DNA of 64,000 nucleotides from NCBI GenBank assembly GCA_964006375.1, contig OZ023269.1, positions 128,225,309 through 128,289,308 of the forward strand. The letters are read 5' to 3'. The DNA is from Tillus elongatus (taxonomy: Eukaryota > Arthropoda > Insecta > Coleoptera > Cleridae). Below, piece after piece: positions 2,204 to 64,000 of the stretch. The position numbers and the translations under genes were made by a program. The stretch's first letter is position 1. The number at the start of each line of letters is the position of its first letter. The notes beneath the pieces were generated by a model. The model did no database searches, had not been told where the DNA came from, and worked only from the letters and a program-made list of their open reading frames with translations.

Positions 2204-2779
2204 ACGCAGTACAGAATCAAGTGCAAGCGAACACTCGCAATCCAGCTCTGTTCAAATGGAACCTGCAGATCCCTCCAGCGGAGCATCAACTCCAGATGCC
2301 TTCAGCGGAGCATCAGCTCCAGGTACCTTCAGCGGAGCATTAGCTCCAGGTGCCTTCAGCGGAGCATCAGCTCCAGATTCCTTCAGCGGAGCATCAGCTT
2401 CAGGTGCCTTTAGCGGAGCATCAGCTCCAGGTACCTTCAGCGGAGCATCAGCTCCAGATTCCTTCACAGGAGCATCAGCTCAGGGGGCCTTCAGCGGAGC
2501 ATCAGCTCCAGGTGCCTTCAGCGGAGCATCAGCTACCTTCAGCGGAGCATCAGCTCCAGATTCCTTCAGCGGAGCATCAGCTCCAGGTGTCTTCAGCGGA
2601 GCATCAGCTCCAGGTGTCTTCAGCGGAGCATCAGCTCCAGGTTCCTTCAGCGGAGCATCAGCTCCAGATTCCTTCAGCGGAGCATCAGCTGCAGATTCCT
2701 TCAGCGGAGCATCAGCTGCAGATGCCTTCAGCGGAGCATCAGCTCCAGATGCTTTCAGCGGAGCATCAGCTCCTCCATT
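2204..2779 (+). CDS. Exon 1 in window: 9-residue tandem-repeat exon (SGASAPDxF)
   Basis: The acceptor TTTTACAG ends at 2203 and the donor GTAAGTACTTTAGATTA begins at 2780. Phase 2 to phase 2, 192 codons. After a Ser-rich lead (RSTESSASEHSQSSSVQME) come 19 tandem units of a 9-residue repeat, consensus SGASAP[D/G][A/S/T/V]F, encoded by a 27 bp DNA unit. One unit is shortened to seven residues near 2532 and the last ends in PPL at the donor. Units are very similar, so the array is young or homogenised. The repeat is Ser/Ala/Gly/Pro-rich with a periodic Phe and has no predicted fold. An ATG at 2190 lies in frame just before the acceptor, so a promoter within the intron could start here, but the splice-site context fits an internal exon better. 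The array is also open in a second forward frame and one reverse frame because it lacks stop codons in those phases. These are shadows. Confidence 0.75.
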
Positions 2780-3237
2780 GTAAGTACTTTAGATTAGAAA
2801 TGATATCGTAATAGTTAGTTTTATTTTTCATCGCATCGGCCCATTTACAAATTGGTTCTAGATACATAGAAGCCTTAAAGGCTTATTGCGTTTGCTTTGT
2901 TTAAAATGATTTTTACAGTGAGAAATGCAGTATCCCCTGGCAATTCCAGGTGTATTCAAGAACGTAAAAGGAAATTATCCAGTACTATAATTGATTTCTC
3001 TAAAAACACTGTCTTCCATTGTTTAGTGATTCGCATGTGAATAGGACGTACACAGCTATTATAGGTTGCATAATCTTTAATTGAGGTCTCCGTATTTATA
3101 GATTTTTATGAGGTGTACCCTGGCAGTAGTATGTGCTGTCAGGTACTCAATAAAGTTGAGTTCTGGTAAAACGTAGCAGTGCTACGCTCGTTTTGCTGCA
3201 GGGATTTATCGTAAGCTCCCCGCTATGGATTATGCTA
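2780..3237. other. Intron sequence, no gene seen
   Basis: No coding signal. A perfect six-base hairpin, CGTAGC AGT GCTACG, lies at about 3173-3187 after a CTCAATAAAG run, so it could be part of an old LTR, but no matching partner was found. Confidence 0.4.
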
Positions 3238-3700
3238 CTAGCCCAGTAAAGGTAATTTTCCTACAAATCCACCGGTATTTTTTTTTTTACGAAATTCGCG
3301 TTTTGGTATCGGTAAAGCCATATCCATGTATTCTGCATTTGTACCTGGCGTGGCTATAATATCAGCTATATCGTTTCGATCAAGTCCACCTTCACCCAGA
3401 TCAACTTTACTGTGTTCTGGTCCGCTGGTGCTGCAAGTTTTATATGGGATGCTCAAACCAATGCCGACGACACCTTGTAGCTTGTACTTGCTTTGAGGGT
3501 TATTGACCGACTGTCTAGTACAATATAGATCCCCTTATTCAAGTAAGCTCTCTGATTATTATCTTTTGCACGCTTCAGTGTATATACACTTGAAATACAG
3601 TGACATCCCAGTACCCGTCTTGATGTTTGATTCGTGCATATCAAACCAGGCTTGCAAAAAGAAGCTTATGCTGGCTCTGTCGCCTCATTTCGATAGCATA
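3238..3700 (-). pseudogene. Unidentified broken minus-strand ORF
   Basis: One minus frame is open for 72 codons from an ATG (3456 down to 3238). It continues upstream through KYKLQGVVGIGLSIPYKT with stops above that. The end contains an A-run (FRKKKN) and closes KLPLLG before a stop. It looks like the C-terminus of a mobile-element protein, but I do not recognise the family. Confidence 0.3.
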
Positions 3701-3704
3701 TAGC

Positions 3705-4254
3705 AAAATAGTTTCCAAATACAGTCAGCGAGTTATGTAGTTCGTATTTATGTCAAATATGTGCGCGCACCGCACCTCCCGGACGATGCATCATTGTCGC
3801 GTCCCCTATATTTAGTTTTCACAACACTGACTTTTTGAATGAAAATTTAATCCTTGCAAATATCTAAATTTAAAGGGTACAGTGAAAAACGGTCAGTGTC
3901 GAATAACTGTCAATTTAAGGCAACGATAGAAATTGTAGCAAAAGTTTTTCTACGAAAATTCGCTAAAATGTTATATTTTGTGTAATTTACTTCTGCATTT
4001 TTTTTTTACAAGTTGTTTGCAAAAAAGTTAATGTTTATGCTTTTATTTTAACACGATTTTGATACGCATTTTCTTCATAACGTCTTACTGCCAAGTTCAA
4101 TTACTGTCAAATTTTTATTCAAATTGTGGGAGATCCATGAGCATCAATATTTCTTTAGTATAACAATATTTGTTTTTAAATTCAGATCCTAGATAATAAT
4201 TAATTATTCAGCACAAAAATGTTCACATTTCATCTTGGATTTGACCCTTTTTTT
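3705..4254. other. Intron, no gene seen
   Basis: AT-rich sequence without an ORF, splice pair or repeat that I can place. Confidence 0.4.
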
Positions 4255-5605
4255 CCTCCGTAGGGCTGTCCGCGATTACCGCTCCGGTAGCACTGCAGCC
4301 TTGGGCTTATTGTGCACGCCCTATACCTTTTTTTACTTTACCCATTCCATGATTACTGTGCCTTGGACTAGTCGGTACAGCAACTGGTAGGGCCAAGTCT
4401 CAAATTGCTCTGTCTCCGGTCTAGGCTGTCCGTAGATCAGTTGTTCTTTACAGAGCTTTACAGTCGCACAGGATGTGCTGGGCTGATTCTTCCCGCCCGC
4501 CGTCTGCTTGCCAGGTCCCCCTCGAACGGTCCCATTTTATGCAGGTATTTCTTGACAGGCATGTGTCCCGTCAAGAATCCTGTTCTGTTCCTGAGCTGTC
4601 TTCTGCTGAGATTTAGCAGTTCTACAGCTCTCTTTGATCTGGGTTCTCCAATTAATGTCTTCCCATGTCTAAGCCCTGGACAATCTGCCCAGTAAACCTT
4701 GTGTTGGTTCCTGATCCAAGACCTAATGGGTCCCCCGGCAGTGCTCTTCGTCACGCCTAGGACCGGTTTTTTTTTTGATGCAGGAGGGGGAAATGCTCAT
4801 GCAGACCCCATTCACGGCCCCGTAGGTTCCGTGGGATATCGAGGTACTGTGAGACTGTACTCACTACCCCCCCCCCCCCCTGGGAGTACCGGACCTTAGT
4901 CCATACCTCCGTCGGAAAGAATTACACACAATGACATTTTAGGGTATGAATGTTTCCATTCTGTTTTTGCCGCGGGGGCGTTAGCGGGTAAGTATAAGCT
5001 TTGGACGCTTATGCTTGTGTGGAAGTTGCTCGTCGTAGTCGGTGGCACTACGGAAAAGAGCATTTGGGTGCGGCTTCTGGTCCCATAAACAGTCCTGCTG
5101 ATCCTCCCTTCGCGAGTCTGTCAGTGGCCCGGCACCCAGATGAGGGAAACCTCATTCTGCCCGGCCAGGTCTCTCATCTCGTCTAGGCATTCACTAACCA
5201 GTATGTAGTTTACGTGTGGGTTACTTAGAGCCTTGAGGGGCTGCCTGGCTGTCTGTAGCTATGAAGTTCCGCTTGTTGGTGTAGCCCCTCCTCTTGTTCT
5301 CCCGCACGCAGTCGAGGATTGCGTACATTTCGGCCTGTAACACCGTTGCGTGAACCCCGAGAGAAATACTGCGACTTATTCTCGCTCCTTCAGAGTAAAC
5401 ACCGGCACCCGTCCCACGCTCTTCGCCAGATCCATGTGTAAACCAGACGAGCGCGCCTCGGAGTAGGCCCGGCGTCTCCCTCCGCCATGTCTGGCTGTCG
5501 GGGATTATTACTGCAAATCTGCCGACCCTGCGGATTCGCGGGCTCGCAAACTCTGACCCCATTTCACGATCTCCCGAATTTTGCAGTGGCCCCTTTAGCA
5601 TGGTT
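4255..5605 (-). pseudogene. I/R1/LOA-type non-LTR 3' part: RNase H, C-terminal zinc knuckle region and 3' UTR (family A)
   Basis: The minus strand from 5601 carries an RNase H domain: WFTHGS (first catalytic Asp replaced by His), AEMYAIL (Glu) and ATDSQ (Asp). After an interruption it resumes at 4754 with RNQHKVYWADCPGLRHGK and LLNLSRRQLRNRTGFLTGHM, the post-RNase H region of this family. The same protein is better kept at 16791-17360, 42612-43148 and 58361-58630. The segment 4770-4915 is a foreign insert matching the 5' region of the endonuclease fragment at 7370-7510, and includes a 14-base C run. Confidence 0.72.
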
Positions 5606-6243
5606 TTGCCTTTAATCTATTCTTACAAACTAGTCTATATAGTATAGACCCAGCCTGGCCTCCCCCATGATGACTAAATGTGGGGGGGGGGAGGTAGATT
5701 CGACCTTGTATATTGTAGTTGTATGAAAAGTCATAAATTCTTTTTTGGTTTTGAGTACTAGCTTATTCAGCCATTCTCCAGATTTCAAATTGTATATAGG
5801 AATATTCATCATTTACATAAGTATTTTACACCCCAATAAGCAAAGATTATATGGAAGTTTTTGTATATATCAAAGAAGATCAACGGTTAGGTTTATTAGT
5901 CACCTCCTGGGATGGTAATAATGCTAGTAGCGCCAACTACGCAGATCTGAGTAGAATCTAAGGAATGTAAAAACAAATTAAAATTATGGGAAAAAGACAG
6001 GGACACACTTCACTACAGTGGGGCATAGCATGGTGATTTTGGGACGAACAAGGTTTGTCACTAAAATATGGGAATAAACACAAGGATTTTGCAAGATGCT
6101 TACTTCTATACCTAACTTAGATTATCTACGTACTGTACTAATTTGGGTGTAAATATATTGATTAATGTTAGGATTCCTAATAAAGTCATATGAATTTGAT
6201 TTGTCTTTAATGTTTTCACTTACTCTGCACTACAATTTTACAG
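5606..6243. other. Intron, no gene seen
   Basis: AT-rich intron between the family A fragment and exon 2. A nine-base G run is present at about 5682. No coding signal. Confidence 0.4.
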
Positions 6244-6333
6244 AACCATCACAGAGCCCACCGCGACCACAATGCCCCAATCATTCATAAATCAAACTCA
6301 GTCAGGATACGGAAGAATGCCAACCTATCAGTT
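6244..6333 (+). CDS. Exon 2: phase 2-2 micro-exon, 30 codons
   Basis: Acceptor CAATTTTACAG; donor GTAAGTATTTTAGATTAT at 6334. Reads TITEPTATTMPQSFINQTQS, then a Gly/Tyr segment (GYGRMPTYQ) up to the junction Phe. Thr/Gln/Pro-rich, no recognised domain. Its donor-side intron sequence closely matches that after exons 1, 5 and 7, which suggests a shared duplicated origin. It lies between a small non-LTR-free stretch and the endonuclease fragment at 6584. Confidence 0.7.
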
Positions 6334-6583
6334 GTAAGTATTTTAGATTATAAGGATAATACCATTAATGTTAGGTTATACCTATAATGCTCTTTCATCA
6401 AATGCCTTATGTTTTAAATATTTAAACTGATAAAAACCATTATGATTTGTCTCCACAAATTAAAATAATAGCTAGAATCTATTACACGAGAACTGAGCGT
6501 TTGTAAAGGCTAGGGGAGAGGCTGGAAAGTTAACATACTTCACTTTTGAAGGTCAGTATTTTTATAAAATAAAAATTTGGAAG

Positions 6584-7560
6584 CTACATTTCCTGAATTT
6601 TTTCCTCTTGGGGCTCAAAGTCACCCAGACACTGGGTGGAAACTGTTAGATCTAAAACTTCCTCACGCCGCATTGTAACGAAGGTCGGTTTATTACCACT
6701 ATTTAATATGTCTAAGTCAAATGTCATAAAGAATTGTAAAAGTGACTCACCTCTAGAGTTTGTGTCCGTACTTCCCCACAACTCATGGTGCGCGTTCGCA
6801 TCCAAGCCGATGATGGTCAGCTTTCCCCTGGTAGATAAGCCGATACTACAGTAATGTTCCTTGGCCCATCCGCTCCTCCACATCGAATGTTGATAGTTTC
6901 CAGGTCCCTGGAAGAGAAATTCACCAAGGGCAGAAACTCTGACCTGACCTGACCTGACAAAAATGCAGGCCCTCGGGTTCGCACTGGATTTGTTGTAAAT
7001 GAGCTTTCCAGCAGCTTTGCTGAGTCCCTTGATCTCTCCTTTATAAGAGTACGATTCCTGGATGAGGGCCACATCCGTGTTCCTCAGAACCGTTAGTAGT
7101 CCGGCCGTGGCTGCCCTACTGTGTTGAAGGTTGACCTGAAGGAACCTAAGTCCCATTAACCCCCGGTTGCTGCCGCAGTGGGCGGAGACGTGGGACCTCC
7201 AGAGTCCGCGGAAGCTGCCGCCCTCTGGCCTGTCTCCGTTTCCGGAATGCCTCGAGGCACGAATCTGTAGCCGGAGCCACTCCTCGAGCCTCATTTGTTT
7301 TGATATTATATTCGTCTTTCTCCATGTTGTTCCCACGAGAATGGGGGAAATAACTGTCCACACCATCAGAACCCCGCGGTATGGACTAAGGTCCGGTACT
7401 CCCAGGGAGGGGCTTTTAGTGAGTACAGTCTCACAGTACCTTGATATCCTACGCCACCTACGGGGCCGTGAATGGGGTCTGCATGAGCATTTCCCCCTCC
7501 TGTATCCAAAAAAAAACGTCATTTCTTTAGAATTTATCACTACACTGCGGCATGGCCTAC
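6584..7560 (-). pseudogene. Non-LTR retrotransposon 5' region and AP-type endonuclease domain (family A)
   Basis: A 318-codon minus frame contains an exonuclease/endonuclease/phosphatase domain: MGLRFLQVNLQHSRAA (Asn), ALIQESYSYKG (Glu), IIGLDANAHHELWGS (Asp and Asn) and a late LDLTVS. These are the marks of the I/R1/LOA group endonucleases, which nick the genomic target. The domain ends early at 6584 and no reverse transcriptase follows, so this copy is dead. The 5' leader (7370-7560) also occurs at 4770-4915 and 37595-37700. Confidence 0.75.
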
Positions 7561-7758
7561 TCTAACACGTCGCTGCACAAAATGATGGCGGCGCGGGTAG
7601 CCAAACACGCATTTATTGCCTCTGTGCCCGACTATTTCATCCTGCCCACCTACTTTAGCATTGGGCAAGCAGCAAGACAATTATTTTTTTGCTTAATTCA
7701 ACTAGTACTCTAAAATATTCTATCTATTTTTTATTCACCATTCAATGCATTTTTACAG

Positions 7759-7872
7759 CCCCAACATGCAATCATCTCCAATGCCTCCCCCAGGATTTGA
7801 GCATGTACTACCGGGGACCTACAAACCGACAATCCAACAACCGATAAACAGGGGATTGTCGAACTTAGGACT
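7759..7872 (+). CDS. Exon 3: phase 2-2 micro-exon, 38 codons, INRG type
   Basis: Acceptor GCATTTTTACAG; donor GTAAGTATTTTAGA at 7873. The encoded segment begins PNMQSSPMPPPGFEH and ends QQPINRGLSNLG plus the junction Leu. The end INRG-x3-G-L recurs in exons 4 and 6, so these three form one exon subfamily. Downstream intron sequence (about 7905-7935) matches that after exon 4 in the same relative place, so exon and flanking intron were duplicated together. Pro/Gln-rich and probably disordered. Confidence 0.72.
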
Positions 7873-8054
7873 GTAAGTATTTTAGAACCAAAATTTCTAC
7901 TATTCTTTTTATGAAACATATATCTATCATCTCAAAGTTTTTGAAAAATTTTGTTAATTCAACTAGCCAAACCACAGCGATATCTACAAAGACTACAGTG
8001 GTTGCTAGGCAAATGGTGAAACTGTTGACATCTCTATCGCCAAATATAAAATAT

Positions 8055-8560: not shown

Positions 8561-9405
8561 AATTTCTTAAATTTTACTAAAATATTTGCAGAAAATTCTC
8601 TTCAAATAGACCCGTTCTCTGATGCTTTGGCAGTAGTTTTAAGTTAAGTTTATCGCTTAACGGTCTATAATGTTTAGCTAATTTTCGTAGAAAAAATTCG
8701 TTAATGAGGAGACCTCGACTTTTGAATTTCAAAAAGATTTCTTCAAATGAGGGCAAACTAGGCTCCGTAGAATCCATATCCGCGTTTACGCTCTGTTTAC
8801 ATATATACAGGGTGACGTATTTCTGCGGTAAAGCCCAATATAATTGTTATTATGCAAGATACGAGAAAAAATTGTATATGTTACCTATATGGTGTCTTGA
8901 GCTGCATCTTATAAAATTATGTTGACAATCACAGGATGGCCCATAAGTCGTTGGTGATACCTACAATTTACACCCTTATATTTCATAAATACAATTATTT
9001 TGACAATTATAGGGTGGCCCATAAGTCGTTGGTGATACCTACAAGTTTTTTTTTAACATTCCTTATTGCACTTTTGCATGATTCATCGAAATATGATGCA
9101 TGTTTGTAAAAAAAATCGAGATGCAGTAAGTGCGTTTTGGTAGCTAATTTGCTATTAACTTAAGGTTCGTCGGCTAAGAAACGAGTTTTCTCGGAAACAT
9201 TTAAAGTTTATTTTCGAAAAAATGTTATACATTTTCAAACAATAAGTTATTTTGATAAAATATGGTACATTTTTTCTACTATATAGGTTATACCGGTGAC
9301 CAAATTGATGCCTGCTTGCATTAAAGAGACATATTTACTATTAAAATCATTTTTATCAAAATTCTCTTCCGTAACGCACTTGCTGCGTCCAGACTTTTTT
9401 GATAA
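8561..9405. repeat. Non-autonomous repeat R1, partial copy
   Basis: Matches 15085-15868 and 19580-20340 over most of its length. It carries a GTGGCCCATAAGTCGTTGG motif at both 8940 and 9015, a local duplication, and closes with inverted ends: GCAGTAAGTGCGTTTTGG at 9123 against GTAACGCACTTGCTGC at 9372. Confidence 0.65.
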
Positions 9406-9438
9406 ATTCTTCAATACATTTGATAGTTAGTTATACAT

Positions 9439-9852: not shown

Positions 9853-11690
9853 GTGGTGTCATTTATCATTTATTATTTATTATATGTTAGTCATCTACCC
9901 CAGGCGTACGCTGATGATGGACTGGTCTTAGTCACCGGCAAATTTCTCGGCGTCGTCTGTGAGTACATGCAAGCTGCCTGTGGCATAATCGAAAGGTGTT
10001 GTGGTGACCAGGGACTCTCCGTAAACCCGACAAAGACGGAGATGATCCTATTTACCAAGAAGAGGAATGTAGAAGGGTTCAGGGTGCCCGTGATGTTTGG
10101 AAAACCTTTAGCTTTAGTGCGGGAGGTCAAATATCTGGGGGGGATCCTGGACCCCAAACTAACATGGGGGTCGTAAATAGAACGAGTAGTGAAGAAGGGA
10201 GTAGCGAACCTCTAGCAGCTGCGTCGAGTGATAGGGAGGACCTGGGGACTTAATCCTCGGATCCTTCATTGGATCTACATTGCGATCGTCAGGCCGAAAA
10301 TCATCTATGGGGCGTTGGTCTGGTGGTGTGGTTTGAAACAAACTACCAGCAGGAATCTGGCCAAACTCCAAAGGCTGGCAATCCTGGGTATCACAGGCGC
10401 TATGAGGACGACACCTTCAGCCGCGCTAGATGTCCTGTTGATGCTGCCACCACTTCCCATCTGTATCAGAAGGGAGGCTATGGCGACGCATCTTAGAATG
10501 CGAGACTCAGGAAACTGGTGTGGAGAGGGAGCAGTAATAGGGCATGCAAGAGTCGCCAAGGAGGTGGAAAAGGAAATTCTGATTTCCGTCATAAAGGTGC
10601 GGGATGCCGAGACCCATATTAGGTTGACTAAGCCATACACCCTCAGGATCCCCAGTAGGGATCAGTAGAGGGAAAATGAGGTTGCATTCGAGCCCGCAAG
10701 CTTGGTCTGTTTCACCGACGGATCGCGGCTGGAGGACCAACAATCCTCCGGGGCAGGAATATACATCGAGGGCCTGGGGGTGCGCGAGAGCTATGCTCTT
10801 GGCGCATATACCACGGCATTCGAAACAGAGGTGTATGCTATTTTGTCTGTGGCCGATAGACAGGATGTGAAGAGGAGTCCCGAGAAATGTGTGTACATCT
10901 GCTCGGATAGCCAGGAGGTCCTCCGGGTAGTCTGCGCGGCCAGAATCAGGTCAACACTGGTTCAGAAGTGCGCTGATGCCCCCAGAGGACTAGCCAGGAC
11001 AAAGGAGATGCAACTGGTGTGGGTTCCGGGACACTGTGGCGTAGCGGGGAATGAGGTGGTGAATAATCTCGCAAGGCTTGGTTCCCGGCGGCCGTTCTGT
11101 GGCCCGGAGCCTGCGATAGGCCTAAGTAGGAAGACAGTCTCTGTCGCCTTAGACAGGTGGACTGAGGAAGCAATGGAGAGGCACTGGGGGTTGGTTGGTG
11201 GCTGCAGGCAGGCGAGGGATTTCGTGGAGGGGCCGGACAGAGATAAAGCTGTCTGGCTACTCGCAAGAAGTCTACGCACGCTTCGCCGCATCCTTGGGGT
11301 GCTGGCAGGCCACTGCGCCCTTAGAAGACACCTCACATTGATAGGCGTAGAGAGGGATCCCATTTGCCAGGAATGCGGCGAGGATGAAGAAACGTCCTAC
11401 CACTACCTGTGTGAATGCTAGGCTTTTGGGAGTCTTCGATAAGAATTGTTCGGATCGAGGATTCTGCAGAGGAATCAGGTAAGTACCGTCCAATTGAAGA
11501 CCGTCACGGCCTTCATTTCGAGGTCGAGGCGGTTTGGCGACGGAACCGAGGAAGAGTAGAGCAAAGGTGCTGGGTTGCTGAGGTTGGAAAAAAGGGTCCA
11601 TTGTGGCCTACTTGCTTGGCGTTGGCCTCCCCACCACTGCTGCTATATTATATATTAGTCATAGATCTATGCCTTATATGAATGTTTTAT
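9853..11690 (+). pseudogene. I/R1/LOA-type non-LTR: reverse transcriptase C-terminus plus RNase H
   Basis: The catalytic YADD box opens at about 9915, followed by a thumb region (VKYLGGILDPKLTWGS, then IVRPKIIYGALVWW at 10284). A second frame at 10702-11421 is a well-preserved RNase H with FTDGS (Asp), FETEVYAIL (Glu), CSDSQ (Asp) and WVPGHCGVAGNE (His). It ends in a cysteine-rich CQECGEDEETSYHYLCEC knuckle. Stops at 10174, 10214 and 10666 split the ORF. 5'-truncated before the fingers. Distinct in sequence from family A. Confidence 0.85.
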
Positions 11691-11958: not shown

Positions 11959-12093
11959 ACCAGAGACACAAGCGAGTCTAAACCTCAGACAACCCGCTGG
12001 TCATAACCTCATGCAACAAGGCTCAACCGGAAACTTAGTAGGCCACTCTGGCTATGATCAAGGCATAAACAGGGAGATATTTACCCCAGGATT
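11959..12093 (+). CDS. Exon 4: phase 2-2 exon, 45 codons, INRG type
   Basis: Acceptor GCATTTTTTCAG; donor GTAAGTACTTTAGGCTA at 12094. Starts PETQASLNLRQPAGHNLMQQ and ends YDQGINREIFTPG plus Leu. The tail aligns with exon 3 (PINRGLSNLGL) and exon 6 (PVNRGMWSSGV). The shared acceptor lead AATGCATTTTTnCAG and shared intron sequence after the donor mark exons 3 and 4 as paralogous. Gln/Asn/Gly-rich, no domain recognised. Confidence 0.73.
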
Positions 12094-13609: not shown

Positions 13610-14700
13610 TCTATTTCAACATCTTTAACTAGAGCATGATCTGTCATTTGTACTTGTGGTGGTTTTGACGTAGTAGCTTTGAGTCGGCTTGTTCATTTTT
13701 ATAGGGGCAGCATTAAAGGTTCTTTAAATTTTAGCGTTGCTGTTCGGGCGTGATGCTAACGTGATTCTCGAGCTAAGGATTTTTGCCTACGTTCTTTTGG
13801 ACGAGCTGCAACACTTTTTTGTACAGAGTGATGCTTAAAATAACTGCAGGCTGGCATAGTCTACTTTTTTTTGCTAATTTGTTCTGGGAGTGAAAGAATC
13901 TCTTGTACGAATACATTGTGTGTTGTTGGTCCCGGTGTAGCTCCAGAATTGTCTGTTTCTAGTGTATTAATTATTACATCATGGTCATCACCTACTGACT
14001 CAGGGGTCACTAGATTCCGCTCATGAGCTGTTTCTGATGCTATCACATTTACATCGTCAGCATTGTTTTCCTTATTTAGTAAAGCATCCACAGCCACAAA
14101 ATCATCCTCACTAAAGACACCCCTATCCATTCGCCATATTCCAATAGCTTTAGATTCATTACTAGTGGTTACTATAGAGGCAGATCGAAAATGCGTCTCG
14201 CTCAAGACAGCTGTGATATTGTATTACGACTCCGCATTTCCTGGGTTTGTTCTTAACCATTTCTGTGTTCTTTTGTATAGAATAGCTTTCTATGGGTTTA
14301 AAGAAACTTAGGGCTAATGGTTGGGTGGTCTGTGCAATAAGATAACTCCATTTTCTTAGACTAATAATATAGCTTCCAAAATTTTGGAGTGGGTTGTGTG
14401 GCCATCTAGCAATAACAAAACTTTATTTTCAATTGAACATATGACGTTACTAATAAAGTGTTTTAACCACTCCAGAAAAAAGTTTGCGTTAATGTAACCT
14501 GTGTCAGAGATTGTCACTATAGCTCCTGGTTGTGCACCATCTTTCAAATTGTTTGCCATACGCTTATGCTTATAGAAAAACACAACTGCCTGCAGCATTG
14601 ACGCAACAAACAATCGTGATTTCGACACCACGCGCTCCACTGGAAGCACCTCCTACTTGATGTTATCCTCTTTTAACCACGATCTTTTTTTGCACAGTGG
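13610..14700 (-). pseudogene. Tigger/pogo-type transposase C-terminal part
   Basis: The minus strand carries the DDE_1 catalytic region: VTISDTGYINANFFLEWLKH and KVLLLLDGHTTH (catalytic Asp). It continues with RTQKWLRTNPGN and ESKAIGIWRMDRGVFSEDDF, the typical pogo/Tigger C-terminal block. Stops at about 14330 and 14205 break it. The DNA-binding N-terminus is missing. Confidence 0.75.
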
Positions 14701-14781: not shown

Positions 14782-15868
<1,087 letters not shown>

Positions 15869-16387: not shown

Positions 16388-16468
16388 GACCAATTTGCTG
16401 GCCCCTTCAATGCCTTACTTGGGATGTTTTCAAAGACAAGGCTGGGGAGAGAAGCCAAATTATGAATT
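16388..16468 (+). CDS. Exon 5: phase 2-2 micro-exon, 27 codons
   Basis: Acceptor CTAATTTTACAG; donor GTAAGTATTTAAGATTA at 16469. Reads TNLLAPSMPYLGCFQRQGWG then EKPNYE plus Leu. The upstream intron lead (TTTTTACCATRCAC then TTTACAG) is nearly the same as that of exon 7. The end NYEL resembles the DYEL and CEL ends of exons 11 and 12. A (TA)n array follows 150 bp downstream. Confidence 0.7.
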
Positions 16469-16611: not shown

Positions 16612-17832
<1,221 letters not shown>

Positions 17833-20779: not shown

Positions 20780-20935
20780 ACCCCCCATAGAGCCAGCTAG
20801 CAGCTCCAATCCTTCACGAGGCTTCGAGTATGGATTTCCAGTGGCCAGCGGACAGACCATTGACCCAATTAGAAGCCAAACAGCACCCCCCAGATGCGAA
20901 CAACCGGTTAACAGAGGGATGTGGAGCTCAGGAGT
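20780..20935 (+). CDS. Exon 6: phase 2-2 exon, 52 codons, INRG type
   Basis: Acceptor CGCTTTTACAG; donor GTAAGCACTTAAGA at 20936, a slightly weaker donor than its neighbours. Starts PPIEPASSSNPSRGFEYGFP and ends CEQPVNRGMWSSG plus Val. The tail is the third member of the INRG subfamily. The exon begins 45 bp after the end of a non-autonomous repeat (GCACTTGCTGCGTC end at about 20725). Confidence 0.73.
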
Positions 20936-28228: not shown

Positions 28229-28324
28229 GGGCAGTAGCATTGATTCCGCAACGGGCTCAATGGCTCCACCGTGGTTTCAGCAAGAAATGCAACAAGAGGC
28301 GTACGGGGGAGCAGGATTTGAATC
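28229..28324 (+). CDS. Exon 7: phase 2-2 micro-exon, 32 codons
   Basis: Acceptor CACTTTACAG; donor GTAAGTACTTTAGATTATAA at 28325. Starts GSSIDSATGSMAPPWFQQEM and ends in a Gly-rich stretch closing with GFE and junction Ser. Its acceptor lead matches exon 5, and its donor-side intron matches exons 1 and 2. As with exon 6, the repeat ending in a CTTGCTGC motif sits just upstream (to about 28197). Confidence 0.72.
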
Positions 28325-28724: not shown

Positions 28725-28811
28725 CACTAATAGACAACAGATAACTGCACCCGAATCCCAATCCCTAGACTTTGAGTCAGCAACATACGGAGCAACGTTT
28801 AATTCTGGATT
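28725..28811 (+). CDS. Exon 8: phase 2-2 micro-exon, 29 codons
   Basis: Acceptor GTATTTTTACAG; donor GTAAGTATTTATAAATTA at 28812. Reads TNRQQITAPESQSLDFESAT followed by YGATFNSG plus Leu. It is only 400 bp from exon 7, the shortest intron in the window. Gln/Ser/Thr-rich with a single acidic patch; no domain. Confidence 0.72.
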
Positions 28812-28924: not shown

Positions 28925-30985
28925 ATAGGTGTCTGTCTGCTTCTCTCATCCTGACCCATCTGATATCTCACAAAACGTCACCGAAATTATCCAAGCTGGC
29001 ATGGATTTATCTATTCCACATACACAGAAAACCTTTTTAACCACTCAAAAGCCCTGGTTCTCTAAATCCTGTGACAAGGCCAGACTTGAAAAGGTCAAAG
29101 TTCACAAGACGCTTCTACATAATCCCAGTCAAGAAAATCGTCAACCGTTTAACGACGCAAGAAACCGCTATGTCCGTATTCTTTCTGCGGCAAAAAACCA
29201 CATCAAAAACAAAGTCCTCTCAAGCTCCAACGGCGGCAAACCCTTCTGGACTCTTGCTAAATCTATTGGGAATAATTTCTGCAAAAGCACGTTCCCACCC
29301 CTTGTCTCAGGGGAGGAAATTGTTTCTACCGCCCTGGGCAAGGCTGAACTTTTTGCTTCGTTGTTCGCCGGCAATTCTACTCTCAACCCACCTCCAAATG
29401 TTCAACCACCAACAGTCCCCAATGTCGCGCATAAAATGACGGATATCATTTTCAAAACAAAAAAGGTACGAAAGATGCTCTCTTCTCTTAATAACAGGAA
29501 AGCCTCTGGCCTTGACGAGATCCCAGCAATTGTTCTCAAAAAATGCGCACCAGAACTTGCTCCTGTCCTGATTCGTCTGTTTCAGATATCTTACAATAAA
29601 GGCATATTCCTTACTGCTCGAGTACAACCCATCCCCAACAAAGGATCCAAAGCGCTTCCTAGCAACTACAGGCCTATTTCTCTCCTTTCAGTCGTCTCTA
29701 AAGTGATGGAAAAGTATATAAACACCGAATTACTAAAATTTCTTGAAAAACACAGTCTAATCCACGACAGGCAGTATGGATTCCGTCAGCGCAGATCGAC
29801 TGCCGACCTCCTTCCCTTTGTCGCCCATTCTTGGAACAAGTCTTTGGAATTACACGGTGAATCCCAGCTTGTTGCTCTAGACATATCCAAAGCATTTTGT
29901 ACCTGGGCAACAAATTTCCTCTCGAACAGGAGCATTTCTGTTGTTGTGGATGGCCATTCCTCTAAACTGTATCCAATTAATGCAGGAGTTCCTCAAGGTT
30001 CGGCTTTAGCCCCTACTTTGTTTCTTCTCCACATCAATGACCTCCTATCTAGCACATCCAACCCAGTTTACAGTTACGCGGACGACAGCACCCTCCACTC
30101 AAATATACAATATTCTAAGCCTGTCTCTTTAGCCCAATTAGATGAGGATCGCAGACTCATGGAGGGGTCTGTCTCCGTGCATCTCCAAAAAATATTAGAC
30201 TGGGGAAGTAGAAATCTTGTACAATTCAACCCCACCAAATCTCAGTCTTGCTTTCTTTCTCATAAGAGATAAACCAGCCCTAGACCCATCACAATGAATA
30301 ACCAAGCTATTCAAAGTAATGAGTCCTTTTCTCTTGTTGGCATTTCTGTGGATCGAAATCTTAATTGGCACCAACATCTCACATCAATTGCAGAAGCGGC
30401 TGCTAAGAAATTAGGTTTCCTCTTCCGGGCTCGCAAATACTTTTCACCAGTTAATCTCTATACCTTATATACTTCACTAATAAGGCCAAACCTCGAATAC
30501 TGCTCCCACATCTGGGGTGCAGCTGCCGCTTCTACACTCGCTATCCTGGACTCCATTCAAAATACGTCTGATCAGTGACCCTACCCTCACCCAAAGGCCG
30601 CCATCCCTTGCCCACCGACTTGAAGTTGGTGACTTCTCTCTCTTTTATAGATATCTGCACGGGCACTGCTCAGAGGAGCTTTCCTCCATAGTTTTCCCAC
30701 CTGCTGCCCCCAACAGATCTACCAGGGGAACAGAGCGAATGTACCCTTTTACTGTCCAGGTCACCAGACATAGAACATCTTGTTATGCCCGCTCTTTTGT
30801 CCCGAAGACTTCCAAGTTGTGGAATTCCTTATCGGCACATGTTTTTTTTTCTCCTCCGAACCTCCAAACCTTCAAGTCCAGAATTAACAAGTTGCCTCTT
30901 TCCTCCTTGTCAACACCCACGGTATGATAGTATTTAGGCTGTAAGCCCTCGTGGTGTGTTGTTGAAATTAAAAAAAAAAACACAT
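28925..30985 (+). pseudogene. CR1/Jockey-type non-LTR, longest family B copy
   Basis: A 447-codon frame (28929-30272) spans the pre-RT linker (VRILSAAKNHIKNKVLSSSN), the fingers (PSNYRPISLLSVVSKVMEKY, QYGFRQRRSTADLL), the first catalytic block ALDISKAF, AGVPQGSALAP and the catalytic YADDST. About 70 bp are deleted right after ISKAF compared with the 55620-55735 copy, so the Asp-containing loop is shortened and the enzyme is dead. The frame then shifts into the thumb (LVGISVDRNLNWHQHL, SLIRPNLEYCSHIWGAAAAS) and ends with the GTGTTGTTGAAAT tail and A-run. 5'-truncated before the endonuclease. Confidence 0.85.
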
Positions 30986-34604: not shown

Positions 34605-34688
34605 AACTGCAGCAGAGTCAACTGGATGCCTGAGACAACCCCCAAGCTATGAAGAAGCGATCTGCAGCAGAATGTCGAGCTTTGGATT
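34605..34688 (+). CDS. Exon 9: phase 2-2 micro-exon with PPSY motif
   Basis: The acceptor is CTCTCTCATCCTAG and the donor GTAAGTACTTAAGATTAG follows at 34689. 28 codons starting TAAESTGCLRQ, then PPSYEEAI (PPSY at 34639-34650), ending SSFG plus Leu. PPxY is the classic ligand of WW domains, as in NEDD4-family ubiquitin ligases, and is often followed by acidic residues as here. Exon 10 is the same length and aligns without gaps at about 10 of 28 positions, including PSYE, so the two are duplicates. It starts 26 bp after a (TA)n array that abuts the mariner-like element. Confidence 0.73.
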
Positions 34689-35494: not shown

Positions 35495-36735
35495 AACGGC
35501 ACTACAATTAATTGCACTGATAACTGAAAGTGAGACACGTAAGATGGTTATTCTACACTCATCTACTCTCGAGAGACTGGTCTTGACACCCTAGATGGAC
35601 TCTTGCAGCTCAGCATAACTAGCTGACATAATCGTGGCGGTGAACGAAGTGCACATGTCTAATACGACTCTCTGGCCAGCATCCACTCTGCAGGTGACTT
35701 CGTGTCTACGCCACAATGACCTACGGCAGCATGCTCTGACGCACGGCATTACAATTAATTGCACTTATAACTGAAAGTAAGACACATGAGATGGTTATTG
35801 TACACTCATCTACTCTCGAGAGACTGGTCTTGACACCCTAGATGGACTCTTGTAGCTCATCATAACTAGCTGACATAATCGTGGCGGTGAACGAAGTGCA
35901 CATGTCTAATACGACTCTCTGGCCAGCATCCACTCTGCAGGTGACTTCGTGTCTACGCCACAATGACCTACGGCAGCATGCTCTGACGCACGGCATTACA
36001 ATTAATTGCACTTATAACTGAAAGTAAGACACATGAGATGGTTATTGTACACTCATCTACTCTCGAGAGACTGGTCTTGACACCCTAGATGGACTCTTGC
36101 AGCTCAGCATAACTAGCTGACATAATCGTGGCAGTGAACGAAGTGCACATGTCTAATACGACTCTCTGGCCAGCATCCACTCTGCAGGTGACTTCGTGTC
36201 TACGCCACAATGACCTACGGCAGCATGCTCTGACGCACGGCATTACAATTAATTGCACTTATAACTGAAAGTAAGACACATGAGATGGTTATTGTACACT
36301 CATCTACTCTCGAGAGACTGGTCTTGACACCCTAGATGGACTCTTGCAGCTCAGCATAACTAGCTGACATAATCGTGGCAGTGAACGAAGTGCACATGTC
36401 TAATACGACTCTCTGGCCAGCATCCACTCTGCAGGTGACTTCGTGTCTACGCCACAATGACCTACGGCAGCATGCTCTGACGCACGGCATTACAATTAAT
36501 TGCACTTATAACTGAAAGTAAGACACATGAGATGGTTATTGTACACTCATCTACTCTCGAGAGACTGGTCTTGACACCCTAGATGGACTCTTGCAGCTCA
36601 GCATAACTAGCTGACATAATCGTGGCGGTGAACGAAGCGGACATATCTAATACGACTCTCTGGCCAGCATTCACTCTGTAGGTGGCCTCGTGTCTACTCC
36701 ACAATGACCTACGGCAGCATGCTCTGCCGTCCCAT
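35495..36735. repeat. 247 bp satellite, five tandem copies
   Basis: TACAATTAATTGCAC recurs at 35503, 35750, 35997, 36244 and 36491, exactly 247 bp apart. Central copies are almost identical. The first and last carry more changes (for example GAACGAAGCGGACATATC at 36630). GC content is higher than the surroundings. No ORF. Confidence 0.95.
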
Positions 36736-41142: not shown

Positions 41143-41226
41143 AGAGCCACCAGAGTCCACCAGAGATGCAAGTGGCCTACCAAGCTACGAACAAGCGCTC
41201 TATGACAGGGTGATAAATTCCATATT
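41143..41226 (+). CDS. Exon 10: phase 2-2 micro-exon, duplicate of exon 9 type
   Basis: Acceptor GAAATTTTACAG; donor GTAAGTACTTTTGC at 41227. 28 codons starting EPPESTRDASG, then LPSYEQAL, ending VINSI plus Leu. It matches exon 9 in length and in EST, PSYE, A, R and the final Leu. The first Pro of PPSY is Leu here (LPSY), so WW-domain binding may be weakened or lost in this copy. Confidence 0.72.
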
Positions 41227-44317: not shown

Positions 44318-44398
44318 AGATACAGGTGATGAACCGCAGCCCTCTTGTTCTGGTGCAAACGACGCACCAATCGTAAATCAAGAGGCTGATTATGAATT
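44318..44398 (+). CDS. Exon 11: phase 2-2 micro-exon, recent duplicate of exon 12
   Basis: Acceptor AATATTCACAG; donor GTAAGTACTTTTATAG at 44399. 27 codons: DTGDEPQPSCSGANDAPIVN then QEADYE plus Leu. Homology with exon 12 covers the exon and about 75 bp of upstream and 200 bp of downstream intron (44240-44605 against 48087-48440), so this is a recent tandem segmental duplication. Acidic and Pro-containing, no domain. Confidence 0.75.
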
Positions 44399-45067: not shown

Positions 45068-47082
<2,015 letters not shown>

Positions 47083-48163: not shown

Positions 48164-48247
48164 CGATACAGATGATGAACTGCAGCCCTCTGGTTCTGGT
48201 GCAACAAACAACGCACCAATCTTTAACCAAGAGCCTGGTTGTGAATT
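48164..48247 (+). CDS. Exon 12: phase 2-2 micro-exon, recent duplicate of exon 11
   Basis: Acceptor CCAATATTAACAG; donor GTAAGTACTTGTATAG at 48248. 28 codons: DTDDELQPSGSGATNNAPIF then NQEPGCE plus Leu. Differs from exon 11 by one inserted codon (ATNN against AND) and several substitutions while staying open, which argues that both copies are used. The TTATTACAAG-like intron block after the donor is shared with exons 11 and 13. Confidence 0.75.
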
Positions 48248-49650: not shown

Positions 49651-49713
49651 AAACATCCCACAGCCAGCCAGTGGGTGCCCACCACCTGCTAGTCAAAATC
49701 TGGAATACGTGGC
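49651..49713 (+). CDS. Exon 13: phase 2-2 micro-exon, 21 codons
   Basis: Acceptor TTTATTATAG; donor GTAAGTATATATTTATTC at 49714. Reads NIPQPASGCPPPASQNLEYV plus junction Ala. Pro-rich. The following intron (49714-49795) carries a block similar to that after exons 11 and 12, which suggests a more diverged member of the same duplication series. Confidence 0.7.
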
Positions 49714-51026: not shown

Positions 51027-51095
51027 CCACAAAGGTTATCCAATACTGCGAAAATTGATTGGACGTCAAGAACTGAATAAACCACAGTACACTAC
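51027..51095 (+). CDS. Exon 14: phase 2-2 micro-exon, 23 codons, basic
   Basis: Acceptor CTATATTTTTACAG; donor GTGAGTATT at 51096, the only GTGAGT donor in the series. Reads HKGYPILRKLIGRQELNKPQ then YT plus Thr. Unlike its neighbours it is basic and not Pro/Ser-rich. It may be the start of a structured linker before the kinase rather than part of the repeated disordered region. Confidence 0.68.
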
Positions 51096-51271: not shown

Positions 51272-52580
51272 TCTGCCAGCTGCAATTGAGATCGTAGAAA
51301 CTATGTTTGGAGATAATTTTGCTAAACAATTGCGATCTATATCTCTATCAAATGATACTGTTGCCTGTTGAATTAGTGATAGAGCTGAAGATGTACAGCA
51401 TGCACTTTTCGGCGAGTTGCGTGACAATTTCTTTTTCAATTCAGCCTAATAAGGCAACAGATAGCAATAAAAATGCTTATTTAATTGCCTATGTTCGATT
51501 TTGTGATGGTCAGCAGTAAAAGAACAACTATTCTGCAAACCAATAGAACTCAAAGCAACGGCACTTGCATTATTTGCTATTTTAAATGATTTTCTAAACC
51601 AGGCAAACAGAGTGGAAAACGTCGGAATATGCACCGATGTGTGGAAGCTCCCAAAGTATACAAGCTCTTGTGAAACATAGATTTCCATAGTGTATCTGGA
51701 CACATGATCCACAGAGACGTTCTTGCTTACAAAGTAATGAGTGCTGGTCTGAATATTGTGCCAACGGCGGTGGTAATCGAGTAAATTATATAAAAATCAG
51801 ACCCATAAAATCAAGAATCTTTTCTGCACATTGTAAAGACATGGATGCAGTACAGCGTTACTGTTTTATTGCGAAGCAAGATGGTTATCACGTGGGCATT
51901 CTTCTCAATGTATTTATGAACTAATGAAATCGCTATTTTTCTAGAAGAGGAAACCGACTGGAAGCCGAGAAGTTTCAAGATGATTTAATTGTGATGAAAT
52001 TGATCAACTTGGTCGACATATTCAAGAAAGTAAATACCTTGAATCTTCAACTCCAAGGAACAACCACACATATGTTGGATACGAGTGATAAAGTTAATGC
52101 GAAAACTAGAATTCTGGAGCATAAATCTAAAGCAAAAACCTAGAAATGTTTGCAAATGTGGGTGAAAGTGTTAGGACTTACGAGGCTAAAGAACAACATG
52201 TGGAAGTTGTTTATGTAACCATTGAAAATCATTTAGCCATGCTGGAAAAGAATTTTAAAAAGTATTATATTGCTAACTTCAACTTGATAGCAACTTACGA
52301 GTGGGTTAGGGACCCATTTCAAAATACTCCCGAAGGTCTCTCAATTGCCGAAGAAGAAATCTTTATAGACTTCACAGCAAAAGGCGAAATCAAGAGAGAA
52401 TTTAGTAACAAATCACTCTTTGAATTTTGGGCAGATTGGTATCTATTGCTTTTGCTTCAGTTATTTTTTTAATAATATATTTTTCACATTTTTTCTCAAT
52501 ATGCTCGCGCCTCCCATTTAGTTTTATCACACCCCGTTAGGGTGCCGCACCCCACGGGTTGAGAATTGCTGGCCTAGAAA
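51270..52580 (+). pseudogene. hAT-superfamily transposase remnant (ZBED5-like)
   Basis: Reading across frames on the + strand: AAIEIVETMFGDNFAKQLRS and ISLSNDTVA (SNDTV block), NAYLIAYVRFCDGQQ, WIHCVIHREVLASK-like, INLVDIFKKVNTLNLQLQGT, and a C-terminal FKKYYIANFNLIATYEW with FEFWADWY. These are the ordered landmarks of hAT transposases related to vertebrate ZBED5/EPM2AIP1 proteins. A CCCACGGGTTGAGAATTGCT end follows at 52551, typical of hAT termini. Many stops. Confidence 0.7.
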
Positions 52581-56700: not shown

Positions 56701-56724
56701 AAATCACCACAACACATTTTAAAA

Positions 56725-56768
56725 GACCTAACGATCGTTTCGCTAACCAAGTTAGAGTGATCAGAGGA
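56725..56768 (-). ncRNA. Degenerate hammerhead motif
   Basis: Keeps stem II CUAAC/GUUAG, GAAA, C-GAUC-G and stem I (CCU/AGG), but the core is CUGAUCA, so the invariant G8 is lost. Probably inactive. Confidence 0.6.
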
Positions 56769-58320: not shown

Positions 58321-58324
58321 AGCG

Positions 58325-58730: not shown

Positions 58731-59292
58731 ACAGTGCGGGTAAGATGACGAAGTTCGTCATTTTACCTGTGCCATCTTATCCGAATAGGTTATGTTTAAA
58801 GCCGGTACCCATATTGTTGTGAAAAACATGATATCGATAAAAATTTAACTGGCATGCAACGAAATACATTAGTTGCTAGCAATTTAGCACAATCAAGTGT
58901 CAACATACCTTGAATAATGGTTAGTTAACCTTACTTGACACAGCGACGATATTACACCAGTTATGCAGGATATACTGACATGGGTTCCAGATACAAAGGC
59001 TACCACAGCCTGTCTGGGCTGCACGGCAAACTTAACTTGCCTGCTTTTGGTAAGATGGCAGCACCATACGGAAAATCGGTATCATCGCCTTTGAAGATAT
59101 GATTATTCATTCATTATCTTACCCTCTTTGTCAACTTACCCAACCTTCCCCTATAAGTTTCATGTGCTGAATGACGAAATATTTTAAAAAGTTACTTAGT
59201 TTAATTTTAACAGTAGTTTGTAATCTTTTGGCCAATTAAATTTTGTTGTTGTATATAATTGTTTGTTAACTGTATTTATTATAATTTTACAG
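58731..59292. other. Intron, no gene seen
   Basis: A TAAGATGRC/GTCATTTTACC pair and several TTACCC/GGGTAAG strings between 58735 and 59150 suggest a non-autonomous repeat with inverted pieces. No coding signal. Confidence 0.35.
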
Positions 59293-59340
59293 AAGTCGCG
59301 AATTCGTCTATCCAATCGAATTCCAATTGACCTACGATCT
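59293..59340 (+). CDS. Exon 15: phase 2-2 micro-exon, 16 codons
   Basis: Acceptor ATAATTTTACAG; donor GTAAGTATTAAC at 59341. Reads SREFVYPIEFQLTYD plus junction Leu. At 48 bp it is the shortest exon. Its content is hydrophobic and aromatic, like the segment just before the kinase, so it probably belongs to the kinase-proximal linker. It lies 8.2 kb after exon 14, across the most heavily nested transposon region. Confidence 0.65.
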
Positions 59341-59403
59341 GTAAGTATTAACTATATTTATATCTAAATTTTATTCTAACAAGAAATCCAAGCAAATTTT
59401 GTT

Positions 59404-60820
<1,417 letters not shown>

Positions 60821-63195
60821 ATGGCTATGTGATTTTTTTAATAAGGTCAATTATCTCAAAAAACGATAAAGATAGGTTAGATGCAATTTGGATCAATTTG
60901 TAAATTTTATGTAGAATTCAAATATGTAATAATATACATGCTGATTGATTTAAAATAGCAAAGTTGATTGTCGTATCGAAGAAATGAACTACCCTTTATA
61001 CATGCAATTATTATCAAATAAAAAACTGCGTGAATATAAACAACTTTTCTATTAGTGAATTTTCATTAAGAAAATTCACTAATAGAGAGGTGTCGATGGT
61101 GAGACTCGGAAAATTTCTTCAAATGAGCGCGAATTGGGGACCCTGGAACTCATTTCCATGGTCAGCTAAAAATTAAAAAACATTTTTTTAAACGCATTAT
61201 CTTTCAAATTATTTAGGTGCATAGTTGTGTACCAATTTTTAAGTCTTTTGATCATAGAAACATAAAGTTGTTCGGAACTAAAATTAAAATAATCCTCGAC
61301 ATCACTTCAAATTCTGTAATGCAATATCTATAATGTTGGACAAAGACAGATGATGTTACCTGTATTGCTATGCTATTTAAATAAATGATGGATAAAAATC
61401 TAAACAATGGAAGTTACAAGTATTGCAACATGTCAGTATGGAGACCATTGTGAAATGTACGACAGGGACGTCATCTCGGTGTGGAACCAGGCAGTATGTT
61501 TTCACGATAGCTCTAGTTAACACAAAATGTTATAGATGGAGACATGTGTACAATCAACTAACAATCTTGTAGATTGTAAGACCTGGTCCATTTCTTTTAT
61601 AATACCGGGACAATGTTTGCTTTCAAAAGCGCTAAATTTTAGCATGTGACAATGTTCTTTGCAAGTATCAACACTTGCTCGCAAAATGAGAACGATACTG
61701 ATAGATAAGTTACTAGATCCATCATTTTTATTATCGATGATTTTCCAGGTTAGTTTTTTTAGTGAGTTTGATAAATAGCACTTAAAGCGTATTTCTGTAC
61801 TTCTCATATTGTACGTTTCAAACAGGTACAGTCTCACGCTTGCAATTAAACAAACCTACGTTTGTTAAGCGTCCATGCCTATCGAGCTTAATTTAAAAGG
61901 TGCTTGCTTTCGCCGTCGACCGGATTTTAGTGTAGTCTTGGACAAAACCAGATTTTTACACTCGCGAATCGCGAAATAGCCGCGAAACGTATTCCTACTG
62001 GTTTATTTAAAATAATATCGTAAAACCGTTATTTTTTATTAGATTTTATACATTTATTTTACTAATTTTTGTGTGCACACAGACACGATCTAAATGTCTT
62101 CTCTACTTTTAAGTTTGTGTAGTTCCAATGTTAGTTAAGGGCCTCCCTTTATTATACTTACTTATCTTGTGCTTATATATGCAATATAAAAATAAAAAAA
62201 GAGTGAAACAACAAGTGAATTTATTTACTTTAGTGCTGCATTCGATATTATCTGAAAAATACATTATAGGCGACAATGTGGAATGTAATTTCGGTAAATT
62301 TACAGTTTACTGCATTTTTTCCCAGAAACATGCTGAGAACCCCCCTTGGATGCACAACCCACAAGGCAAATTTAGTGCAAACAACCCCTAAGAAACTTAG
62401 GCGACCGATAATGAATATGGTTGCTGGGCGGGAAGAAAATCTGAGCGGAAAATGCTAAAAAAAAAACGTTTAGTCGGACTTTGAAAATATGCGTTTTTCA
62501 CATTTTGCAGCAATACTTTCTTTAAAACCTGTCTGCCCCGAACAACACCCATATTCGCCCAGGTTCAGTAACTTTCTTGGGGGTTGCTCCCAAGAAATGT
62601 TTCTTGTGCTTTATGCTTTGAAGGTAGTTTTATGCATGGGCAAGGGGAAGGAGAACCCCCGTGTTTTTGGGTGAGGGGGCAGAAACCCTCTTGGTCCTGG
62701 AGGTTCTTCTTCCTCTTCTGCAGACATAGAATCACCCTCAATGCATGAACCACAGGAATCTTTTTATGTTCCGCTTTCTAGTGTATTTTTGGTTGAGTAT
62801 ATTTTCTGTTTATCAACTGTTTTGTTTGAGTTTTGTATCCAATTTACTCTATAAATATTTATGTCAGAGGTCATGTTTTTGCTTGTCCTTCTTTACCTTA
62901 TTTTTTTACCGTCCCTAGTTAAATAAAGTAACGTTTATTCTTATGAAAATTCACTACAATAACGCATTTGCTGCGTTCCGTACATTTTTAATAATTTTAT
63001 TCAACTATCACAATTTTCCATAAAAACGGTGAGAGGGCATGTTATCTTGAACCGCCTGTACATACAATTTTAAAATACTGTGTCAAGAACCACACTTAAG
63101 AAATCTAAGTTGCTTCTGTGTACTTTTTAAAAAAGCTAGAGAAAACACTTACAGTTCACACATAACAATTATTATTAAAAGGATTTTTTTTACAG
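60821..63195. other. Last intron in window: repeat fragments, no gene seen
   Basis: 61045-61150 is an R4 left end (TTAGTGAATTTTC, AAAATTCACTAATAG). 61440-61610 is a copy of the 8286 repeat. 62941-62980 is an isolated R1/R2 right end (ATAACGCATTTGCTGCG). At 62128-62760 short open frames match nothing I know. The polypyrimidine tract for exon 16 is at 63183-63192. Confidence 0.5.
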
Positions 63196-64000
63196 GCTAA
63201 GACCACTTCCGTTCAGGTCAAATGATATGTTTCAGCCACAATCAGAAGTTGAAGGTAGATGGGTCATTACAACTAAATTAGGAGAAGGAGCTCATGGGCA
63301 CGTTTATAGAGCTTTTGATAAGAAAGATCAGAAATTTGTTGCAATAAAGATATGTTATGAAGGCCTCAGCAGCAATGAAGCAAAGATACTCTTACAACTA
63401 AGGGATAGCCGGCATTTTACAAATTGTATACACCAAAGTATAGCTTCAATGAGGTCTTTTCTAGTTTTTGAACTCACAGGACCAAATTTGGCATCCCTTA
63501 CGGCGGTCTACAAAGGGCTGAGTTACAACACGATTGCCAATTTGGCCTTACAAATGTTGGAGACGGTTGGTGAGTTACACTATATTGGCTACTCACATTG
63601 TGACATTAAAGCCACCAATTTTGTAATCGGACTTCCTCCAACAAAATGGCGCACTGTATTATTGATAGATTTTAGTATAGCCACAACAGATGCAAGCATT
63701 AAGAAATGCGAAGATATCTATGGGGTTATATTAATATTGCTACAGATGGTTACTGATACCACAGACTTGTTTAAATATGGGTTAGGTCTCAAGCCCTCAG
63801 AAAAAGTTGCGATGGCCGCAGATTTAATACAAACCTACCTTGGAGAACCCTTTCTTAAGTTAAAGTGCAAACTTGATAATATGGAGGGAGCGCAGCTACC
63901 AAGACCCATACACTTAAAACGTTATGTTGATGAGTTCATTTATAACAGAAACTTGCGCATTTTTGAGCCTTTCGAATGGGAGCTTAAACCATCTCTAATG
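63196..64000 (+). CDS. Exon 16: degenerate CK1/tau-tubulin-kinase-like protein kinase domain (3' end beyond window)
   Basis: Acceptor TTTTTTACAG ends at 63195. The frame is then open for 268 codons to the window edge. Numbering from the first full codon: glycine loop GEGAHGHV 29-36, VAIK Lys51, helix-C Glu61, ELTGPNL 92-98 (CK1 family ELLGPSL), HCDIKATN 134-141 with catalytic-type Asp136, Lys138 and Asn141, LLIDFS 155-160 with Asp158, helix-F Asp173, and a closing EPFEW 257-261 that matches the EPYDW end of tau-tubulin kinase catalytic domains. HRD is HCD and DFG is DFS. Only 14 residues separate Asp158 from Asp173, where CK1-group kinases have roughly 40 or more, so the activation loop and P+1/APE region are essentially absent. 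Family membership is clear. Catalytic activity is doubtful, though the metal- and ATP-binding residues persist. Large single exon, phase 2 at its start. Confidence 0.88.

Follow-up and report, generated by a model that had tools for sequence, protein, structure and literature searches.

What kind of gene sets a long file of small exons, all in one phase, in front of an altered protein kinase? The question arises from a 64,000-nucleotide (nt) stretch of the genome of the clerid beetle Tillus elongatus (GenBank assembly GCA_964006375.1, contig OZ023269.1, forward-strand positions 128,225,309 to 128,289,308; hereafter the window), in which fifteen complete exons, running on the plus strand from 2204-2779 to 59293-59340, are followed by a kinase-coding exon (63196-64000, plus strand) entered in phase 2. 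Homology among these exons and their intron edges strongly supports exon duplication as the origin of the array, beyond what phase uniformity indicates, and shows clearly, in genomic sequence, how copying of a symmetric exon can build up a long protein region of low complexity. Matching phase and splice sites further suggest that array and kinase form one transcript. The reading we favour, with a probability of roughly 0.35, is a single long host gene in which a disordered exon array offering NEDD4-type docking is mounted on a TTBK-like pseudokinase scaffold.

The exons occupy 2204-2779 (576 nt), 6244-6333 (90 nt), 7759-7872 (114 nt), 11959-12093 (135 nt), 16388-16468 (81 nt), 20780-20935 (156 nt), 28229-28324 (96 nt), 28725-28811 (87 nt), 34605-34688 (84 nt), 41143-41226 (84 nt), 44318-44398 (81 nt), 48164-48247 (84 nt), 49651-49713 (63 nt), 51027-51095 (69 nt) and 59293-59340 (48 nt). 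Every length is divisible by three, the frame is open through all fifteen, and each splits a codon 2+1 (phase 2-2) at both ends, just as a sequence-only reading of this DNA had described. Because every unit is symmetric in this way, adding, losing or skipping one keeps the frame. Leaving aside the 576-nt exon 1, the mean length is 91 nt, and 8/15 exons measure 81-96 nt, or about 27-32 residues each. The introns range from 400 nt (before exon 8) to about 8,200 nt and contain, among other things, transposon remnants and (TA)n arrays, and the 12 exons measured are richer in GC (0.43-0.57) than the 200 nt flanking them on each side (0.18-0.40). As a phase-2 acceptor precedes exon 1 and the frame of the kinase is still open at 64000, the gene should extend past the window on both sides.

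Comparison of the fifteen units (each an exon with the 45 nt before and 90 nt after it) with the window by BLAST (basic local alignment search tool; expectation value, E, up to 1e-3) returned 33 non-self matches, 29 of them to other exon units in the same orientation, though the units make up 6.1% of the window. These 29 represent 15 distinct pairs, most being reciprocal, and 27 of them are in register at the exon 3' end to within 6 nt; the other four matches start from exons 14 and 15 and fall outside exon units. The homology links unite exons 1-10 in one network of ten, in which exon 2 matches the units at 16388, 28229 and 41143, and set exons 11 and 12 apart as a separate, recent duplicate pair with 86% identity over 175 nt. 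Together with the likeness of intron flanks in several pairs, these matches uphold the proposal that the array was built by exon duplication.

The donor motif GTAAGTAYTTWAGA, with at most one mismatch, occurs eight times in the window, each time at an array donor, compared with 0.18 occurrences expected in shuffles. A leave-one-out splice-site scan, from which plus-strand candidates overlapping the listed exons were excluded, ranked 14/15 exons above every other open phase-2 candidate, whichever the strand. Exon 1 scores 33.1, exon 14 scores 20.3 against 16.3, and exon 15 scores 22.1 against 14.8, while exon 9, which has a weak acceptor, passes narrowly (16.2 versus 14.8 for the best elsewhere) and exon 13, the least certain of all, fails (13.4 versus look-alikes at 14.2 and 15.0). 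With frame ignored, the top-scoring acceptor upstream of the donor is the listed one in 12/15 cases, and the remaining three choices would make exons whose length is no multiple of three. A cruder, generic acceptor score, used earlier in a phase-blind test, was uninformative, choosing the listed acceptor in 5/15. Multiplying the open-frame probabilities of each exon's own shuffles yields ~2e-12, a figure that is overstated, since the exons had been selected as open. Chance alignment of open frames is rejected, given the homology between units and the outcome of the leave-one-out scan, both of which bear out the argument that chance would not hold all exons in one phase. Two descriptions of the splice sites need trimming: donors said to be almost all alike lie within three mismatches of GTAAGTAYTTTAGA in only 11/15 cases, and the TTnCAG-type acceptor, reported almost throughout, is strictly present in 11/15. 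Phase and splice signals suggest that the exons are candidates for joining by splicing.

Because intron edges mark copies independently of coding sequence, exon divergence is measurable against a built-in yardstick. Percent identity of the flanks was discarded, since gapped AT-rich alignments yield ~70% without detectable homology; the flanks of 34605/41143 (pairs are named by exon start) are 68 and 72% identical yet have z-scores of -1.7 upstream and -2.0 downstream. It was replaced by z-scores of local alignments against dinucleotide shuffles, with splice signals removed from the flanks; a z of 4 was reached by 2/250 random intron pairs. Scores for eleven pairs are given here as upstream flank, exon and downstream flank. 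Three pairs have intron flanks that are alike and exons that are not, namely 7759/11959 (9.2, 0.3, 7.4), 6244/28229 (4.7, 0.4, 10.4) and 16388/28229 (4.5, 1.4, 5.7), two of which share 28229. Two pairs show the reverse, 7759/20780 (-0.5, 7.2, 1.0) and 34605/41143 (exon 5.0), the latter being the exons with the proline-tyrosine (PY) motifs PPSY and LPSY, so exon 3 at 7759 resembles 11959 in both flanks and 20780 in the exon itself. A dispersed repeat immediately upstream of exon 6 is a caveat on 7759/20780. The remaining pairs are 6244/16388 (4.6, 4.0, 9.0), 44318/48164 (15.0, 22.0, 5.6), 11959/20780 (-1.5, -0.1, 2.6), 28229/28725 (1.5, 1.2, 2.6), 28725/34605 (-0.6, 3.1, 1.7) and 2204/28229 (0.3, exon not scored, 4.5). 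An upstream match between 20780 and 28229 (z 9.5) was set aside, as both carry the dispersed repeat, found also at 15762, 20237, 60722 and elsewhere. Over all pairs, a z of at least 4 was reached by 5/120 upstream flanks, 6/91 exons and 6/105 downstream flanks, and because these counts are similar, exons do not in general show more change. The NG86 estimates for exons 9/10 are 0.62 for non-synonymous (dN) and 1.42 for synonymous (dS) divergence over fewer than 30 codons. This mixed picture suggests that some spacer exons have been under relaxed or diversifying change, with the PY-motif exons partly constrained.

Exons that have drifted apart between similar flanks would also be expected of a bicycle-like gene, that is, a fast-diversifying array of secreted exons whose divergence is driven by host-parasite conflict and which carries the kinase as cargo; we regard this as unlikely. 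The three pairs with unlike exons (z 0.3, 0.4 and 1.4) and alike flanks (z 4.5-10.4) favour it, as do the transposon remnants in the introns (R1-, Jockey-, Penelope- and mariner-like), which we take to be of arthropod type. Numerous small internal exons, of which nearly all are phase 2, characterize the bicycle genes themselves, and megacycle offers a precedent for an array (excerpts of PMC9168663). Against this stand the opposite pattern of 7759/20780 and 34605/41143, the even z counts across flanks and exons, and the PY motifs, which imply a cytosolic location. The word 'kinase' is absent from the main text of PMC9168663. With the first exon assumed to be 60, 150 or 300 nt long, the published bicycle gene-structure classifier returned logits of -32 to -36 for the visible part of the gene, which is truncated on both sides; these values lie far below its cutoff and are thus not positive.

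Most of exon 1 is a 27-bp minisatellite of 19 copies coding FSGASAPDS-type repeats. Exons 2-15 code for 424 residues, in which P, S, G, Q and E, followed by T, predominate, K accounts for 1.2% and V for 2.1%, and no Pfam match was found in these peptides at E up to 1; composition and the missing Pfam match indicate a probably disordered array. Exon 2 ends in MPTYQ and exon 5 in KPNYE, and the PY motifs PPSYEEA (exon 9) and LPSYEQA (exon 10) stand at equivalent places in two exons that are alike (z 5.0). The Drosophila protein Commissureless uses the PY motifs PPCY and LPSY to recruit Nedd4 (excerpts of PMC12101832).

Short units of this kind could instead make up an elastic or spacing region like the PEVK segment of titin, where exon number sets length and sequence is nearly irrelevant. 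The visible array has no Ig or FN3 domain by Pfam and the kinase is TTBK-like, not of the titin type as generally known, which makes such a region quite improbable. The clustering of 8/15 exons at 81-96 nt points the other way, as does the fact that PEVK exons also duplicate, with insertions of long interspersed nuclear elements implicated (excerpts of PMC6469411).

One exon, 805 nt or longer, encodes the kinase; an in-frame ATG at 63225 stands shortly before the domain, which matches Pfam Pkinase at 8.3e-14, above its cutoff. Among the best 60 of 127 matches to solved structures, the nearest relatives are TTBK1 and TTBK2 (58-61 bits), ahead of CK1 and DYRK1A (~35 bits). The TTBK1 match (E 1.6e-15) covers query residues 20-169 and ends just past DFS; for the last 117 residues in the window, beginning six before DFS, no chain matched at E up to 5. 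VAIK lies at residue 48, HCD in place of HRD at 134, DFS in place of DFG at 158 and CEDIYG, read as helix F, at 171. Fifteen residues separate the DFS Asp from the CEDIYG Asp, and ~36 are usual between the matching positions of PKA. The VAIK Lys, the catalytic Asp of HCD, the ATN Asn and the metal-binding Asp of DFS are kept. The Arg of HRD usually contacts the phosphorylated activation segment, so the loss of that Arg together with the segment is coherent. The label degenerate stands, given HCD, DFS and the very short activation segment, and, with most catalytic residues kept, a pseudokinase is likely. It is possible to reconcile the sequence with either a pseudokinase or an activation-independent enzyme. 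A scaffolding pseudokinase beside long disorder has been described in insects for obscurin PK1 (excerpts of PMC10129394).

In NCBIfam, 15 kinase models matched at E up to 1, none of them approaching its cutoff, and the 64-kb window holds no second kinase copy. A protein collection yielded 0 of 232 candidates for the kinase exon at E up to 1e-10 and, for the joined protein, 0 of 1324 within the kinase at E up to 1e-3; the collection returned no TTBK either and perhaps contains few animal proteins, so these absences mean little. A viral origin is not supported, a viral-contig scan sensitive to close relatives only having given three pattern matches and no confirmed one. The TTBK relationship also admits a fast-evolving germline gene whose kinase would be active, or a decoy, in sperm, as the TTBK SPE-60 functions in C. 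elegans sperm (excerpts of PMC12436626); this is an argument by analogy only, which counts against it, and we consider it very unlikely.

The sequence-only reading had the kinase exon ending the array, and its start at 63196 is indeed preceded by ttttttttacag, a pyrimidine-rich acceptor ending at 63195, with the frame also requiring phase 2 and remaining open from there to the ATG. Exons 14 and 15 moreover score well in the same phase. Both points speak against a two-gene arrangement, which we think improbable, with the array as one gene and a short TTBK-like retrogene, starting from the ATG at 63225, as another; the confinement of the kinase to one exon with an in-frame ATG just ahead of the domain speaks for this arrangement.

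Under the favoured single-gene model, a small phase-2 exon of 27-52 codons was copied along with the borders of its introns until ten or more copies were lined up. One copy was enlarged by the minisatellite, a second exon (11/12) was duplicated separately, and the introns were lengthened by transposons and (TA)n arrays; all this is read from the sequence. The array would act as a disordered, readily altered spacer, in which exons 9 and 10 may have been kept more constant through NEDD4-type PY motifs (PPSY, LPSY) recruiting a WW-HECT ubiquitin ligase. The TTBK-like domain, lacking an activation segment, would serve as an ATP-binding (adenosine triphosphate) or protein-binding pseudokinase scaffold that chooses the ubiquitination partner, and splicing of symmetric exons would adjust reach and motif number. 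If the array-kinase link is true, the kinase scaffold here is designed in a way that departs from the known TTBK layout.

Several results weigh against this model. Exons 13-15 showed no homology link to the array in the BLAST comparison of units with the window, and because they lie outside the duplicated network, the model is weakest at the array-kinase link, which counts in favour of two genes. Exons 11/12 give a dN of 0.155 and a dS of 0.093 by NG86, with no sign of constraint over 26 codons. The PY motifs are marginal in number, [LP]PxY being found twice against 0.32 expected in shuffles (P 0.038, suggestive only) and PxY five times against 1.96 expected (P 0.032). The kinase could be active, because the Lys, catalytic Asp, Asn and metal-binding Asp are all present, and a single-sequence structure model of it reached a predicted local distance difference test score of 34.1, too poor for use.

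The introns and their surroundings hold further elements. Between exons 9 and 10, positions 35496-36726 contain a 247-bp tandem repeat of five copies that are 97% alike. Fifteen long (TA)n arrays, 12 of them perfect, lie at 14784, 16615, 19304, 23412, 24604, 27266, 27746, 32214, 34496, 38843, 45104, 47081, 51199, 53772 and 59492, one ending 26 nt before exon 9. Transposon remnants occupy 28929-30269 and 10669-11418 and, on the minus strand, 6587-7561, 16794-17360, 14359-14652 and 45998-46384; they match RVT_1, RNase_H, Exo_endo_phos_2 and DDE_1 and, below cutoff, zf-RVT and HTH_Tnp_Tc3_2. Eight of 16 open frames scanned with Pfam gave matches, some below cutoff, to reverse transcriptase, RNase H, endonuclease, zf-RVT, DUF4817 and transposase. 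The dispersed short repeat occurs at 9300, 15762, 20237, 20633, 28094, 60722 and other sites, with copies just upstream of exon 6 and upstream of exon 7. A 113-codon open frame at 52131-52472 matched nothing in Pfam at E up to 0.01, and Rfam gave no match in the window at gathering score.

Set beside known systems, the locus shares with the tau-tubulin kinases, of which TTBK1/2 are its best matches among the best 60 of 127 and Asator is a Drosophila member, the N-lobe and catalytic loop of the kinase; it differs from TTBK/CK1 kinases in HCD, DFS, the very short activation segment, the unmatched rest of the C-lobe and the N-terminal exon array. Titin, too, has a kinase domain, and Commissureless, to our knowledge, has neither a kinase nor an exon array. 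Paired PY motifs including LPSY are common to the locus and Commissureless, itself a short transmembrane protein (excerpts of PMC12101832). Titin PEVK and the schistosome micro-exon genes have single features in common with the locus: with PEVK it shares short exons duplicated in series within a very long gene (excerpts of PMC6469411), but its composition is not PEVK, its visible array lacks Ig/FN3 and its kinase is of another family, and with the micro-exon genes it shares symmetric exons that can be dropped without frameshift, whereas theirs measure 6-36 bp in mostly secreted products (excerpts of PMC5825161) and those here 48-576 nt.

No kinase gene with a phase-2 exon array was found among the matches listed from the open-licence literature, so the statement that no named kinase gene has such a layout survives to that extent, but the phase-2 multi-exon layout as such is already published for bicycle and megacycle genes (excerpts of PMC9168663). 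Bicycle genes of aphids, phylloxerids and coccids change fast and have nearly all internal exons in phase 2, as do 15/15 visible exons here; megacycle, restricted to aphids, apparently arose by internal tandem duplications within about 100 kb, and the non-aphid bicycle homologues are described there as without obvious CYC motifs (excerpts of PMC9168663). Unlike in bicycle and megacycle genes, a kinase follows the array here, behind exons averaging 91 nt without the 576-nt one. An N-terminal secretion signal is a criterion for bicycle genes; no signal peptide is visible here, the 5' end of the present gene lying outside the window. The architecture works like that of bicycle and megacycle genes; membership is unsupported, the classifier being negative on the visible part of a gene cut at both ends. 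It is doubtful that the locus represents an independent second origin of such a gene, in which a phase-2 array grew by exon duplication, the bodies of some exons changed faster than the introns around them, particular motif-bearing exons were conserved, and the array was coupled to a kinase without an activation segment; if it does, a modular, frame-proof, evolvable tail would drive a pseudokinase. Should array and kinase prove linked, the locus would stand beside the bicycle genes as a second case supporting the view that phase-2 symmetry favours rapid growth of exon arrays.

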